IMG/VR virus record: IMGVR_UViG_3300031746_000180
Coordinates: 1 to 23,251 of that record
Source of the DNA: a virus
Strand: one strand, 5' to 3'
Length of the DNA: 23,251 bases
Both the position numbers and the translations under genes were made by a program. Of this stretch, positions 7,680 through 22,411 are shown piece by piece. The notes under the pieces were generated by a model that was not told the origin of the DNA, made no database searches, and worked only from the letters and a program-made list of their open reading frames with translations. Positions within the stretch are counted from its first letter, which is position 1. Each line of letters starts with the position of its first letter.

Positions 7680-7689
7680 GATTTTTTAC

Positions 7690-7768
7690 CCTTCAATTTT
7701 AAGGTTTATGTTTAGAGGTTCGTTTTGAACCTCATATATATTATACCACCATTTAAGATATTTTACAA
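7690..7768 (-). promoter_or_regulatory. Promoter with two-hairpin leader, copy 1
   Basis: Read leftward: -35 TTGTAA (7763-7768), 17-bp spacer, -10 TATAAT (7740-7745). A hairpin close to the transcript start follows (7715-7733, GAGGTTC arms), then CCTT...AAGG (7690-7704), in which CCTT can pair with the AAGG of the ribosome site of the 197-residue gene. The same three elements recur at 7936-8013 and 11587-11666. Confidence 0.8.
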
Positions 7769-7771
7769 GTG

Positions 7772-7927
7772 TTATTTTGTATCTCGTTTGTTTTCATTGG
7801 CTTCCATTTTGCAGTCAATGTTGTGATAATAGCAGGTAGAAAATATTTCGCAGTCTATGCATAACATATAAATCCTGGGATTTTTATGTATGCAATGTTC
7901 TCTTATATTTCGTATGTCGTAGTTCAT
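7772..7927 (-). CDS. Small Cys-rich protein (51 aa)
   Basis: This 51-codon gene begins MNYDIRNIREHCIHKNPRIY and contains four further Cys residues (MLCIDCEIFSTCYYHNIDC), a pattern fit for a small zinc-binding protein. It has its own promoter and conserved leader upstream, with AAGG before the ATG. Its last residues (EANENKRDTK) resemble the end of a gene remnant at 11670-11780 (EANENKQVTK), so gene end plus downstream promoter were copied as one block. Function unknown. Confidence 0.6.
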   Translation of the reverse strand: MNYDIRNIREHCIHKNPRIYMLCIDCEIFSTCYYHNIDCKMEANENKRDTK

Positions 7928-11578: not shown

Positions 11579-11586
11579 TTTTTTAC

Positions 11587-11666
11587 CCTTCAATTTTAAG
11601 GTTTGTTGTTTTGAGGTTCGTTTGAACCTCTATATATATTATAACACCATTTCAGATATTTTTCAA
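11587..11666 (-). promoter_or_regulatory. Promoter with two-hairpin leader, copy 3
   Basis: Read leftward: -35 TTGAAA (11661-11666), 17-bp spacer, -10 TATAAT (11638-11643), the best promoter in the window. Then comes a hairpin GAGGTTC/GAACCTC (11613-11630) and CCTT...AAGG (11587-11601) that can cover the ribosome site of the 54-residue gene. It probably drives the leftward early operon down to the ATPase region. Confidence 0.85.
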
Positions 11667-11669
11667 GTG

Positions 11670-11780
11670 TTATTTCGTAACTTGTTTGTTTTCATTGGCT
11701 TCTGACATTTCTTCAATCACCTGCTTAACATCATCAGTATACACCAATGCACAGACTAAACCTTCATTTCTGGAAAAAAA
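11670..11780 (-). pseudogene. C-terminal remnant of a small early gene
   Basis: A frame without a start codon reads FFSRNEGLVCALVYTDDVKQ, then VIEEMSEANENKQVTK and stops at 11670. Its composition is protein-like and its last residues match the end of the 51-residue gene (EANENKRDTK). The front of the gene is missing: a stop lies a few codons upstream, near the start of the 166-bp repeat block. It appears to be the tail of a gene cut off by rearrangement. Confidence 0.4.
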
Positions 11781-11826: not shown

Positions 11827-11992
11827 TTTTTGAGAGGTTGTGCCCCAGGGAGCAAGCTCCCTGGGCACGGATAAACCCCCTTAAAAAATTTCACCCGATT
11901 TGTTGATATTAATATATATCATGGGGTGAAAGAAAAGGGTTGGGTTTATTCCTTCTCAAAAAAAAATATTTAATTATTTTTTTTGTAGGAGT
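11827..11992 (+). repeat. 166-bp regulatory repeat, copy 1
   Basis: A 166-bp stretch is nearly identical to 14944-15109; differences are limited to a short segment near 11879-11902. It holds a strong palindrome CCAGGGAGCAAGCTCCCTGG (11845-11864), a second long dyad (11890-11930, TTCACCC to GGGTGAA with inner TGATAT/ATATCA), a T/A-rich run and the AGGAG ribosome site. The palindrome has no T-run, so it is not a normal terminator. Each copy stands directly before an initiator-like gene. It may be a shared promoter/operator or an origin element. With promoter copy 3 and the remnant it fills the gap 11579-12000. Confidence 0.85.
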
Positions 11993-12000
11993 GATGAACC

Positions 12001-13380
12001 ATGATAGTTCGAGAAGAAAAAAAATCACATTACACCATCATCGATAACTCGATTTTACAAAACAAAAATATTTCCAACCATGCGTTTTGTTTGTTGACTA
12101 GACTAATGAGTTTACCCCCAAAATGGAATTTAAACTTTTGGGACATTTTTAGATATTCTAATACCGGAAAAGGCACATGTAGAAAAGCGGTGAGTGAGTT
12201 GGTCTCTATGGGGTATTTTGAGCCTGTCCCATATCGAGATCAGAGAGGTCAGTACGCAGGACTACACTACAATATACACGAAAAACCATGCAATCCGCAA
12301 ACCGCTGATTTTGACACAGTTAATCCGCGTACCGATTTACGGTACACCGTGAAATGGTACGGTAACAAAAGTAATATATATATAAAAGAAAAACAAACAC
12401 TAGAACAAGAAGCTACATATAATGCCGTTGTTTGTTCGGATAAAAAAATTAGAGTACAGGAAACCATCACACCAGTACAGGAAACCATCACACCAGTACA
12501 GGAAACCATCACACTGGTGCAGGAAACCATCATACCAGTTCAGGTCACACCAGTGCAGGAAACACCAGTGAAGGTCGCACCTATACAGGTCGCACAGGAG
12601 CAAAAACCCATCACACAGGAACAAAAATCAGAAAACCAGAAACAATTAAACAGAACTTTTCTTAGAAATAAAATCCGGTTGGAGATGGATCGGAATTCTT
12701 TAAACAGAACTCGCACACCAGAAGTAAAAAACAGTTTTGGTATTGAGCAGGTCAGCAACTCATTAGATTCCATGATGGAAAGTTTAAAAAACAATGTTGC
12801 CGAACAACAAATACAACTTACATCAAATCAACCTATTACAAAGGAGTCTAAACCCATTGAGCACGTTCGGCAGGTCACACCGGTTAACGTCACGCCTAAA
12901 AAACCTATCACAGAAAAGGATTTAGAGGAACTGTCAAAACTTAGTAAAGAATCATCTTCAGACGTGAAAAAGTTGCTTTGGAGATTTCGGTTTGAGTCAT
13001 GTGAGTACATTCGGGCGCAGATCGAGTACTCAAACAAACACAGTAAAACAAATTTCCCTGGATATTTAAATGATTCATTGACAAAGGACTATGCAGGATT
13101 TAACAAAAAGCAGGCAGAAATAAAAGAAAAAGAAACAAAAAAAATTGAAGCCGAGAGAAAAAAGAAAGAAGAGGAGGCGAAAAATCATACAGTTATGGAG
13201 CAAATGAGAGAAAAAGCTCTTTCCATTTTTCGCCGTTTACCTGGAACTGTGCAGCAGGGAATAAAAAATATTTTTGATAAAAACGCTCTTATTCCGTACC
13301 ATGACGACGAGAGTTTTTTGGATTACCTGGAGTTTCAGTTCAAAAAATTCGGTGAGCAGTGGTTTTTTGTCACAGGTTAG
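12001..13380 (+). CDS. Winged-helix replication-initiator-like protein 1
   Basis: This 459-residue protein has AGGAG 10 nt before the ATG. Residues about 10-90 form a winged-helix domain (YTIIDNSILQNKNISNHAFC, LLTRLMSLPPKWNLNFWDIF, GKGTCRKAVSELVSMGYF), as in phage and plasmid replication initiators and DnaD-like proteins. Residues about 150-200 are a low-complexity Val-Gln-Glu-Thr-Pro linker built from 21-bp DNA repeats. A Lys/Glu coiled coil spans about 375-400. The C-terminal 60 residues make a helical domain. It shares its upstream repeat with a second initiator-like gene at 15116. The DNA-binding role is known of the fold; origin binding is inferred. Confidence 0.65.
   Translation: MIVREEKKSHYTIIDNSILQNKNISNHAFCLLTRLMSLPPKWNLNFWDIFRYSNTGKGTCRKAVSELVSMGYFEPVPYRDQRGQYAGLHYNIHEKPCNPQTADFDTVNPRTDLRYTVKWYGNKSNIYIKEKQTLEQEATYNAVVCSDKKIRVQETITPVQETITPVQETITLVQETIIPVQVTPVQETPVKVAPIQVAQEQKPITQEQKSENQKQLNRTFLRNKIRLEMDRNSLNRTRTPEVKNSFGIEQVSNSLDSMMESLKNNVAEQQIQLTSNQPITKESKPIEHVRQVTPVNVTPKKPITEKDLEELSKLSKESSSDVKKLLWRFRFESCEYIRAQIEYSNKHSKTNFPGYLNDSLTKDYAGFNKKQAEIKEKETKKIEAERKKKEEEAKNHTVMEQMREKALSIFRRLPGTVQQGIKNIFDKNALIPYHDDESFLDYLEFQFKKFGEQWFFVTG
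12454..12597 (+). repeat. Iteron-like direct repeats inside initiator gene 1
   Basis: Four 21-bp units beginning GTACAGGAAACCATC (or GTGCAGG) run from 12454 to 12537. They are followed by 15-bp shortened units (GTTCAGG, GTGCAGG, GTGAAGG, ATACAGG). They encode VQETITP-type peptide repeats. Direct repeats in the middle of an initiator gene recall the iterons in lambda O, so this may be an origin. Alternatively they may only be a flexible linker. Confidence 0.75.
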
Positions 13381-14474: not shown

Positions 14475-14816
14475 ATGTACGATTTAAAATGCCCGTACTG
14501 CAACCAAGAAATTGAAATTGACTATGACAAAAAACATAATGATGATGGTGAATCCGAGTTTCAAGACTGCGAAAACTGCGGCAAAACATTCGGCTTCATC
14601 ACCCATGTTACGTGTATTTACGTAACTCCTTGCCAAAACAATGGAGACCACAAACTAGTTGATATTTTTCGTTTTCCACCGGAACTATCGACACGCCCGC
14701 GCACGCGCGGAGTATACTCTATTTTTCCCGCTCTCACCAGACGCTCTTTCGACACGCCCGCGCACGCGCGGAGTATACTCCAAATTTTGTTTAAAAACAA
14801 AACACGTCGCAGTTAG
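14475..14816 (+). CDS. Zinc-ribbon-like protein with disrupted C-terminus
   Basis: The ATG follows AGGAGA. The first 70 residues are a paralogue of the leftward zinc-ribbon gene at 9223: CPYC near residue 7, CENC near residue 33, then TPCQNNGDHKLVDIFRFPPE. In the paralogue a third Cys pair follows. Here the frame runs instead into two GC-rich 32-bp repeats and encodes an Arg/Pro-rich tail (STRPRTRGVYSIFPALTRRS) that has no Cys. The tail is simply the translation of the inserted repeats, so this gene is probably truncated in function, with the original end lost. Confidence 0.6.
   Translation: MYDLKCPYCNQEIEIDYDKKHNDDGESEFQDCENCGKTFGFITHVTCIYVTPCQNNGDHKLVDIFRFPPELSTRPRTRGVYSIFPALTRRSFDTPAHARSILQILFKNKTRRS
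14688..14780 (-). CRISPR. CRISPR-like repeat-spacer-repeat (61-bp period)
   Basis: Two identical 32-bp copies (14688-14719 and 14749-14780) start 61 bp apart. Each has a GC-rich dyad CCGCGCACGCGCGG and ends in the palindrome GAGTATACTC. Period 61 equals type I-E repeat plus spacer. The sequence 14717-14749 (33 nt, including 3+1 nt shared with repeat edges) is the exact reverse complement of 16112-16144 in the downstream initiator gene. Thus 28 unique repeat bases plus 33 spacer bases make 61, as in I-E acquisition. Leftward, TTGTTT, 17 bp and TATACT at the outer repeat could be a promoter. No cas gene is near. Alternatives: a host dispersed palindromic repeat or a rearrangement. Confidence 0.5.
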
Positions 14817-14943: not shown

Positions 14944-15109
14944 TTTTTGAGAGGTTGTGCCCCAGGGAGCAAGCTCCCTGGGCACGGATAAACCCCACTA
15001 AAAAATTCACCCCGAGTTGTTGATATTAATATATATCATGGGGTGAAAGAAAAGGGTTGGGTTTATTCCTTCTCAAAAAAAAATATTTAATTATTTTTTT
15101 TGTAGGAGT
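14944..15109 (+). repeat. 166-bp regulatory repeat, copy 2
   Basis: Second copy of the block at 11827-11992, same length and order. It has the palindrome at 14957-14985, the long dyad at 15006-15047 (TTCACCCC/GGGGTGAA, here with 8-bp arms), the A- and T-runs and AGGAG. It fills most of the 14817-15115 gap. Weaker similarity seems to extend about 60 bp further upstream. A separate short hairpin CGGCTA/TAGCCG is at 14843-14860. Confidence 0.85.
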
Positions 15110-15115
15110 AGAAAA

Positions 15116-16438
15116 ATGGAACAAACCCTGAGAAAAATAGAAGAAAAAAGGAATAGTTTACTCACATACACGATGAGCGCAGAGTTAAAAAACGAATTTG
15201 GATGGTTGGGCGCGTCGATTATACATAATTTTCAGTACTGGCAAAAACAAAATATAGAGAACAAAAAAAATTTTCATGATGGGAAAACCTGGGTTTTCAC
15301 GACTATTCGAAAATTGGCCGAAAAATATTCAGAATCGTGGTTTGTAGTGTGGAGAAAAATAAACCAACTGAAAAAATATGGTATTTTAGAAACCGGAAAT
15401 TACAACCACTCTCCATGGAATCGCACCACATGGTACACAATAATTTCACCATACGTGATGGATTTTTACGAAATACCTTATCAAAAATCTGAACTAAAAA
15501 TTTTCGATCAAAAGGGAAAAAATCGGCCTGAAACCCGCGATACTATGCATTCTGCATCTATGCAGAATGGATTATGCGCCGATGCAGAATCATTAAACAT
15601 ATTAAAACAAAATATAAAAAAGGACATACAGACTCTAGAACTAGAAGCATCTCAGGAGAAAGGGTTTGTTTGTTCTGATTTAAAAATCAAAAATGAAAAA
15701 ATTCCAGTACAGGTCACACCAGAGATTAAAAAAAACATTTCATCAGAACCGGAAAAAATTTCTTCTGTTATTAAGACTCAAATGGAAATTATATTAAAAA
15801 AAGAAGCGCCTGAACCGATTAAAATTGCAACTTCAACGCATGAAAAGGAAACTCCAGAACCTGAACAAAATTTGCATCTTATTGATACTAAACAGGTTAA
15901 TGAGTTGGTGAGTGTTGCAAGAGTAAAAAACTTTTCACTCAGACAGTTAATTCTAAAAAACATTTTAATTCACTCATTTCAGTTGATCAAAAAAAATTTG
16001 GAACTTTCAAACAAAAAAGTTAAATTTGATTGGGGATACGCTAGTTATGCGTCAAAGGCGATTGACGGAGATTACGCGAGGCAAGCACGTGAAAAAGAGG
16101 AGCTGAAAAATAAAGAGCGTCTGGTGAGAGCGGGAAAAATAGAGAATGCAAGAAAAGAGGAGGTGCAAATAAAACAGAAAAATGAAGCTTTTGTAATTCA
16201 GAAACAACAGGAAAATCAGAGCCTTGAGGAGTTTTTCAATGGAATTCCTGAATATCGATTAGTTTACTATAGGGAAAAATTCCTTGCTCAGACGAATGCT
16301 TTTATGAGGGATTTTATCCAAGAAGTTGGTTGGACTTCTGATTATGTGATGTCATCTTTGCGGGAGTTTATAGACAAATGTTCCGAAAAAGAAACACAGG
16401 GAGCGTTATCAGAGACTATTGAGACTATATTTTTTTAA
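15116..16438 (+). CDS. Winged-helix replication-initiator-like protein 2
   Basis: This 440-residue protein has AGGAG 7 nt before the ATG. Residues about 25-120 match the winged-helix domain of many phage replication proteins: LGASIIHNFQYWQKQ, DGKTWVFTTIRKLAEKY, VWRKINQLKKYGILETGNY, then RTTWYTI. A linker follows with LELEAS...FVCSD and PVQVTPE segments also found in initiator 1, so the two genes share a mosaic middle. A Lys/Glu coiled coil near 325-370 includes NKERLVRAGKIENARKEE, whose DNA equals the CRISPR-like spacer. The end is a helical domain. Iteron-like DNA lies at 15548-15590. Its last 30 bases overlap the radical SAM gene on the other strand. Confidence 0.65.
   Translation: MEQTLRKIEEKRNSLLTYTMSAELKNEFGWLGASIIHNFQYWQKQNIENKKNFHDGKTWVFTTIRKLAEKYSESWFVVWRKINQLKKYGILETGNYNHSPWNRTTWYTIISPYVMDFYEIPYQKSELKIFDQKGKNRPETRDTMHSASMQNGLCADAESLNILKQNIKKDIQTLELEASQEKGFVCSDLKIKNEKIPVQVTPEIKKNISSEPEKISSVIKTQMEIILKKEAPEPIKIATSTHEKETPEPEQNLHLIDTKQVNELVSVARVKNFSLRQLILKNILIHSFQLIKKNLELSNKKVKFDWGYASYASKAIDGDYARQAREKEELKNKERLVRAGKIENARKEEVQIKQKNEAFVIQKQQENQSLEEFFNGIPEYRLVYYREKFLAQTNAFMRDFIQEVGWTSDYVMSSLREFIDKCSEKETQGALSETIETIFF
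15548..15590 (+). repeat. Iteron-like ATGCAGAAT sites inside initiator gene 2
   Basis: The sequence CATTCTGCAT (15548-15557) faces ATGCAGAATG (15560-15569) as a perfect dyad with 2 bp between. A third ATGCAGAAT stands at 15582-15590, 22 bp (two helical turns) after the second. A very AT-rich stretch of about 40 bp follows. This resembles a phage origin inside its initiator gene; inference. Confidence 0.5.
16112..16144 (+). other. Exact match to the CRISPR-like spacer (protospacer candidate)
   Basis: These 33 bases are the exact reverse complement of 14717-14749. Flanking bases on both sides do not match. The 5' flank on this strand is AAT, and the opposite end is followed by AAT on the same strand. 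If the element is type I-E, the 33-nt length is that of an acquired prespacer. Confidence 0.8.
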
Positions 16439-21175: not shown

Positions 21176-22084
21176 ATGGTTCATATTTTTACCTTTCTTA
21201 AGGCACTGGGAAAAAGCAAGATGCGTATTCGTGCCATGTCTAAAAAGCGACCCCCTAAAATGAAGTATCCTACAAAACTTGAAAATATTTATGTGGAGTA
21301 TTATAAAAGTTTAGTCAGGTCATGGAAAGAAATCTATTTAGAAACAATCGATCAAAAATTGAGCGATATTCATTTCCAGTTTACGGGTAAAGTGGATTCG
21401 TGGCAAAGCGATCTGGAATCTATCGTAAACGTGTTTACCTTACAAGCGAATACTGCAACATTGTCGGTTATTCCAGCAGCAAAGGAAATGGCTGATCTGG
21501 TTTCTAAATTTAACTATTTAGAATTCCAAAGAACAGTTCAAAAGGTGATTGGTATACCGGTTTATTCTGCGCCTGCTGCCATGGAAAAATATCTCAGCAT
21601 TTTTACTGCGCAGAACGTTTCATTGGTGACCAACCTGAGTCAATCCCTGGAAGGTGAAATAAATCGAGTGGTTCAACGTGGGTTGCAATACGGAAAAAGT
21701 GTAAAGGAGATCAAAAAAACTTTATTAGGCACTGACATTGATCAGGGTGTTTTTAACAGAATAGAGACGCGCGCGGAATTAATTGCACGTGATCAGGTCG
21801 GTAAACTCAATGGGCAAATGACTAAAATCAGACAGGAAGATCTAGGAATTGATCGGTATATATGGCGTACTGCTATGGATGAGCGAGTTAGAGACTCTCA
21901 TGAGGTATTACAAGGAATGTTATGCCAGTGGAATGATGGCTCGATTTACTCACAGAATGACGGGGAAACCTGGGATGATAGGGATTCCATCGGCGCGTAT
22001 GTCGGTGAGCCTGGGGAGGATTATCAATGCAGGTGTTACGCGGAGCCGTATTTTAAAAACCTTTTGGAAGAGGAAACAGAATGA
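21176..22084 (+). CDS. Phage Mu F-like minor head protein
   Basis: The predicted protein has 302 residues. I chose the ATG at 21176 (AGGGAG 9 nt upstream) over one at 21149 inside the portal gene. The first 40 residues are basic. The conserved head-morphogenesis domain lies at the end: ARDQVGKLNGQMTK, then GIDRYIWRTAMDERVRDSHE and PGEDYQCRCYAEP. Members are minor capsid proteins linked to the portal, needed for head assembly and sometimes injected with DNA. The stop overlaps the next ATG (ATGA). Confidence 0.9.
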   Translation: MVHIFTFLKALGKSKMRIRAMSKKRPPKMKYPTKLENIYVEYYKSLVRSWKEIYLETIDQKLSDIHFQFTGKVDSWQSDLESIVNVFTLQANTATLSVIPAAKEMADLVSKFNYLEFQRTVQKVIGIPVYSAPAAMEKYLSIFTAQNVSLVTNLSQSLEGEINRVVQRGLQYGKSVKEIKKTLLGTDIDQGVFNRIETRAELIARDQVGKLNGQMTKIRQEDLGIDRYIWRTAMDERVRDSHEVLQGMLCQWNDGSIYSQNDGETWDDRDSIGAYVGEPGEDYQCRCYAEPYFKNLLEEETE

Positions 22085-22257
22085 ATGAAAATGTTAAAAA
22101 ATCTATATGTAATGCGTCGATTAATTTTCATGAAGTTTTAAAATTTAAATTTGAAGAAGAACCCTTTTTTACTGGCAGAATTGTTTATACGATTGATTGC
22201 AAAGACGGCGGTATAGGTAGTTATGAAGCGTTCATACAAAGAAAAATAAATAAATAG
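22081..22257 (+). CDS. Small hypothetical protein (58 aa)
   Basis: It starts at an ATG that overlaps the head-protein stop as ATGA, so translation is coupled. It reads MNENVKKSICNASINFHEVL, KFKFEEEPFFTGRIVYTIDC and ends FIQRKINK. A mixed beta pattern, no recognised motif. It directly precedes the promoter of the CRISPR-repeat RNA (the -35 begins 2 nt after its stop). In phages carrying RNA anti-CRISPRs, neighbours may be anti-CRISPR genes, but nothing in this sequence shows that here. Confidence 0.6.
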   Translation: MNENVKKSICNASINFHEVLKFKFEEEPFFTGRIVYTIDCKDGGIGSYEAFIQRKINK

Positions 22258-22258
22258 T

Positions 22259-22286
22259 TTGACTTTTATATTTTTTATGTTATATT
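22259..22286 (+). promoter_or_regulatory. Promoter of the CRISPR-repeat RNA
   Basis: TTGACT (22259-22264), 16-bp AT-rich spacer, TATATT (22281-22286). Expected transcript start is about 22293. An own promoter inside a head operon, directly after a stop codon, implies that the following RNA is made separately. Confidence 0.75.
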
Positions 22287-22319
22287 AATATTGTGTAGGA
22301 TGCGAAAAGTCTAGTGATG

Positions 22320-22348
22320 TAGTTCCCCGCAAACGCGGGGATGAAGCG
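22320..22348 (+). CRISPR. Solitary type I-E-like CRISPR repeat unit
   Basis: These 29 nt have the full I-E layout: short 5' flank TAGTT, 6-bp stem CCCCGC/GCGGGG with 4-nt loop AAAC, and an 8-nt 3' handle ATGAAGCG. By my alignment 22 of 29 positions equal the E. coli I-E repeat, with loop excluded nearly all; the handle differs at two positions from ATAAACCG. There is no second copy and no spacer. Cas6e (Cse3) cuts such repeats just after the stem, leaving the 8-nt handle. Confidence 0.75.
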
Positions 22349-22355
22349 ATTTAAG

Positions 22356-22391
22356 CCCTACTCAGGCGATGAGCTTGAGTGGGGTTTTTTT
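22356..22391 (+). terminator. Intrinsic terminator of the CRISPR-repeat RNA
   Basis: CCCTACTCAGGC (22356-22367) pairs with GCTTGAGTGGGG (22373-22384), 12 pairs with G-U pairs, loop GATGA, then seven T (22385-22391). Transcription of the head operon must pass it, or the DUF2213 gene needs read-through. Confidence 0.9.
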
Positions 22392-22411
22392 ATTTTGGGG
22401 GATATTTTTAC

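Follow-up and report, generated by a model that had tools for sequence, protein, structure and literature searches.

The DNA that we examined, hereafter the window, is a virus record of 23,251 bases from a collection of uncultured viruses, which may be a fragment. Its genes include those for terminase, head and baseplate proteins, as well as two putative replication-initiation genes. Upstream of the second of these, referred to here as rep, two copies of a GC-rich repeat enclose an inverted copy of a segment of rep itself, while a different, solitary repeat lies much further downstream (Table 1).

Table 1. Features of the repeat-spacer-repeat unit, of its match in rep and of the solitary repeat.
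Feature	Position	Strand	Basis
Small Cys-pair (zinc-ribbon-like) protein ORF	14475..14816	+	Array within 3' end
Second 29-nt repeat, identical to first	14689..14717	-	Direct-repeat analysis
32-nt spacer AAAGAGCGTCTGGTGAGAGCGGGAAAAATAGA	14718..14749	-	Exact copy of 16112-16143
First 29-nt repeat	14750..14778	-	Direct-repeat and profile analysis
Putative replication-initiation protein gene (rep) with protospacer	15116..16438	+	PHROG 11233, E 1.7e-17
PAM-side triplet AAT, Asn codon of rep	16109..16111	+	Sequence; AAT among I-E PAMs (PMC8482600)
Protospacer within rep, the putative replication-initiator gene of the phage	16112..16143	+	Exact match, 1 nt more to 16144
Promoter-like site TTGACT-16-TATATT, TG before -10	22259..22286	+	Consensus match only; 0.8 expected in shuffles
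Solitary repeat TAGTTCCCCGCAAACGCGGGGATGAAGCG, type I-E-like; candidate RNA anti-CRISPR (Racr)	22320..22348	+	Profile, plasmid array matches
Intrinsic terminator-like hairpin, 15 pairs, T run	22353..22387	+	0.1 expected in shuffles

The two copies of the direct repeat, 14688-14719 and 14749-14780, agree in all 32 bp; their starts are 61 bp apart, and their G+C content is 72%, against 36% for the window. The repeat is absent from every shuffle of the window, even when 3 mismatches are allowed. The 33 nt at 14717-14749 are the exact reverse complement of 16112-16144. No other inverted exact match within the window is as long (maxima of 13-17 nt in 20 mononucleotide shuffles), and a relaxed comparison of 14714-14749 with 16112-16147 gives 35 identities out of 36. 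An earlier note on this DNA, which had described a GC-rich pair of identical repeats 61 bp apart in an AT-rich phage and the inverted match to the same genome, is thus borne out on these points. Its fit to a 28-bp repeat core plus 33 bp holds as regards the 61-bp unit and the type I-E geometry, but the unit is better parsed on the minus strand, with 29 nt of repeat and 32 nt of spacer. With this parse, the 33rd base of the self-match already belongs to the next repeat, as its first base, and the identity of the repeats extends 3 nt beyond the 29-mer (GA before it and A after it). When the two strands of the array were folded, the minus strand reached -40.7 kcal/mol versus -26.5 kcal/mol for the plus strand. 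Upstream of the array on the minus strand, we found neither a promoter-like site nor a known leader.

As for the repeat, 29-nt repeats with a period of approximately 61 bp are the mark of type I-E arrays, and this is the geometry of the phage unit. The period was usual in 16 distinct reference arrays from cas6e-guided loci, a few of which had 60 or 62 bp. Repeats from these 16 arrays, which came from the phyla of a Pirellulaceae genome and a Geodermatophilus genome (two phyla), were combined with one E. coli repeat into an I-E profile (17 repeats in all). The best profile score of the window repeat is on the minus strand, where it is read as GTATACTCCGCGCGTGCGCGGGCGTGTCG and is identical to panel members at up to 19/29 positions, compared with at most 10/29 in the opposite orientation. 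The register of the profile (GTATAC...GTGTCG), set independently of the spacer, places the 3' edge of the repeat exactly at the edge of the self-match, the other edge being 1 nt off. The score is 6.7, or 9.1 with a slightly larger panel; real repeats, when left out one at a time, score 3.1-44.9. Mononucleotide shuffles score as well in 24 of 200,000 cases, and two sets of hairpin-matched nulls do so in 110 and 447 per 200,000. Since the window-wide score only equals the top of 30 Markov nulls (9.1 versus 9.0), the profile supports a type I-E reading of what would be a divergent I-E-like repeat, without proving it. In the usual stem register the repeat has a C8/C19 mismatch, and a longer alternative hairpin is possible.

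The protospacer has AA at positions -3 and -2, and its PAM-side triplet agrees with the I-E PAMs that have been reported, which include AAG, AAN, AAT, AAC, AAA and AWG among others (PMC8482600). If the host system recognized AAG only, AAT could be an escape state. The array copy of the spacer is flanked by TCG, versus AAT at the protospacer, and would therefore be spared. The template strand is preferred as an I-E target (57%), and a crRNA from the minus strand of the array would target the template strand of rep, in line with this preference. The earlier proposal that the crRNA matches the initiator gene of the phage stands as far as an exact match inside a putative rep gene is concerned, the crRNA being a prediction. 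Among viral contigs, no other encodes the same 11-residue stretch.

Copies of the mini-array repeat were sought widely. An exact 25-mer of it has no match in a collection of 84,980 species genomes, in which a degenerate pattern returned only four single GC-rich chance matches without array context. None of 396 actinobacterial genomes contains the repeat at 3 mismatches, viral contigs hold no further copy by exact or degenerate patterns, and blastn of the whole unit against plasmids and phages gave chance-level GC matches only. No host array with this repeat beside cas genes was present in the collections searched, from which the host itself is possibly absent. The comparison with host genomes called for by the earlier note has therefore yielded no host array, and the outcomes that it had named as speaking against a CRISPR origin, namely dispersed copies of the repeat or the 33-bp piece joined to it elsewhere, were not seen in these collections either. 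Since the repeat was found nowhere else, the link of the mini-array to a host CRISPR system is unproven and predicted from sequence. Searches by terminase, portal, Sak4-like and rep proteins returned only distant or mosaic relatives, and hence no relative with one repeat or another spacer with which to compare the unit. Rfam gave no match at its gathering score; an RT-4 match (E 0.58) was judged to be due to chance.

The solitary repeat at 22320-22348, overlooked in the earlier note, is much closer to genuine I-E repeats. It scores 23.6 bits on the profile, or 25.7 with the slightly larger panel, for which the nulls reach 9.0 at most, and it is identical to GTGTTCCCCGCACACGCGGGGATGAACCG at 25 of 29 positions. 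Repeats of plasmid CRISPR arrays (Acetobacter, Paracoccus and others) match it with up to 92.9% identity over 28 nt, and in both plasmid records that we opened (n = 2) an annotated type I-E cas operon ends just before the array. This closeness makes it likely that the phage has been exposed to I-E hosts. Together with its promoter-like site and terminator, the repeat occupies 22257-22397. The RNA of the element folds 4.4 sd below shuffles. Being intergenic, behind a promoter-like site and close to a real CRISPR repeat, the element has the features expected of a Racr; we regard it as a Racr candidate, for which inhibition is predicted, and do not call it a Racr. Counted by eye, it shares only 14 of 29 positions with the mini-array repeat, and the two may therefore not belong to one host system. 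Just upstream, a 58-aa ORF without a PHROG match lies at 22081-22257. Genes for Racrs and for anti-CRISPR proteins are reported to cluster, which makes this ORF a possible anti-CRISPR protein gene.

By a narrow balance of probability, these features identify the element at 14688-14780 as a phage-borne CRISPR mini-array of the type I-E kind, without cas genes and with a single spacer from the rep gene of its carrier. An unlikely, albeit real, alternative is a template-switch mutation in which CRISPR has no part: replication would stall at the GC-rich palindrome, jump over 1.4 kb to rep, onto its complementary strand, copy about 30 nt and jump back, duplicating the 32-bp hairpin around an inverted templated insert. 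The repeat is indeed strongly palindromic, the junctions share 3 nt (CTC) and 1 nt (T) between the repeat edges and the source of the insert, the 3-nt extension of identity past the 29-mer is microhomology-like, and duplications occur elsewhere in the phage, such as one of 166 bp at 96%. However, such an event gives no reason to expect a unit of 61 bp, an I-E-like repeat in matching register or a match of exact spacer length.

The geometry bears likewise on an improbable regulatory reading, in which a plus-strand transcript would present a 33-nt perfect antisense of rep mRNA between two hairpins and limit rep expression. The array is upstream of rep and its plus strand is antisense to it, but an RNA with such a role requires no 61-bp period and no repeat of I-E-like sequence, and the stronger fold is on the minus strand. 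An assembly artefact, finally, would account for a spacer matching the very phage that carries it: the phage would have one repeat, and the assembler would have looped through a unit of a host array targeting the phage, in a record that belongs to a collection of virus contigs and is possibly incomplete. We consider this very improbable, as a single ordinary read is longer than the 90-bp unit, assembly usually employs k-mers above 32, and phage DNA lies on both flanks.

If the element is a mini-array, it could have arisen by two routes. During infection, host Cas1-Cas2e could have integrated 33 nt of phage DNA at a repeat that the phage carried beforehand, which would yield a self-matching spacer directly; alternatively, the phage could have acquired a repeat-spacer-repeat piece of a host array that had been immunized against its lineage. 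Both origins had been put forward in the earlier note. The I-E-like repeat, its register at the match edge, and AAT and the strand agree with the I-E geometry on which that note relied, but no host array or cas gene was found to go with them. The perfect identities suggest that the event is recent. If the minus strand is transcribed and a host I-E system matures the transcript, the resulting crRNA would base-pair with rep on the template strand, and related phages sharing rep would be hit (superinfection exclusion). The carrier would be hit as well, making a functional mini-array suicidal, unless AAT works poorly as a PAM in the host or the phage can block the system. Such a block would be supplied by the Racr candidate if it acts on the same system, so that tolerance of the self-matching array is perhaps Racr-mediated. 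The full scenario, in which host Cas1-Cas2e wrote a piece of the phage into the phage's own repeat and the phage survives its own vaccination through an encoded I-E RNA anti-CRISPR, we put forward tentatively, as a possibility that is more doubtful than not. The mini-array may also be a neutral by-product.

Known virus-borne mini-arrays (Medvedeva et al. 2019, PMC6858448; reviewed in PMC11656645) likewise consist of one spacer and two repeats in a virus genome without cas genes, and borrow host Cas proteins against related viruses; use of host Cas proteins would be expected here as well. In contrast, their spacers target related viruses and not the carrier (PMC6858448, PMC11656645), whereas this spacer matches the carrier's rep, and for the phage unit neither host repeat nor leader was found. 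In models of mini-arrays, a spacer identical to the genome of its own carrier would inactivate the carrier (PMC7099407). Solitary repeat units acting as RNA anti-CRISPRs have been surveyed (Camara-Wilpert et al. 2023, PMC10651486), and for two I-E Racrs, RacrIE1 and RacrIE2, inhibition of a Pseudomonas I-E system has been demonstrated. The repeat at 22320-22348 resembles Racrs in being a single, intergenic I-E-like repeat with an upstream promoter-like site and its own terminator; the mini-array differs from them in having two repeats and a spacer, a class left out of that survey. Chromosomal self-targeting spacers are tolerated through anti-CRISPRs (reviewed in PMC6990116), which parallels the combination of a self-matching spacer and a candidate CRISPR inhibitor, except that here both are in one phage, the inhibitor candidate is an RNA and its action on the system of the array is predicted. 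While phage mini-arrays and Racrs are already known, what falls outside the published pattern is a spacer with a perfect match to its own carrier. If the proposed scenario is true, self-memory and antidote are together on one 23-kb contig. With a perfect self-match and a Racr candidate at hand, it becomes testable whether phages can serve as substrates when spacers are acquired, by what means they survive this, and whether phage repeat mimics are entry points for new mini-arrays.

Several further features of the window were recorded. The ORF at 14475-14816 does not have the C-terminal Cys-x-x-Cys carried by two related proteins and is possibly truncated at the array. The 166-bp duplication (11827-11992 and 14944-15109, 96%) lies ahead of both putative replication genes and holds a GC-rich hairpin, resembling a shared leader. 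Tandem 21-bp units are found at 12453-12557 in the first replication gene; the second contains a related copy of 22 nt (15701-15722). Finally, two regions at gene 5' ends within the minus-strand block, 7682-7804 and 11580-11702, show 80% similarity over 123 bp.
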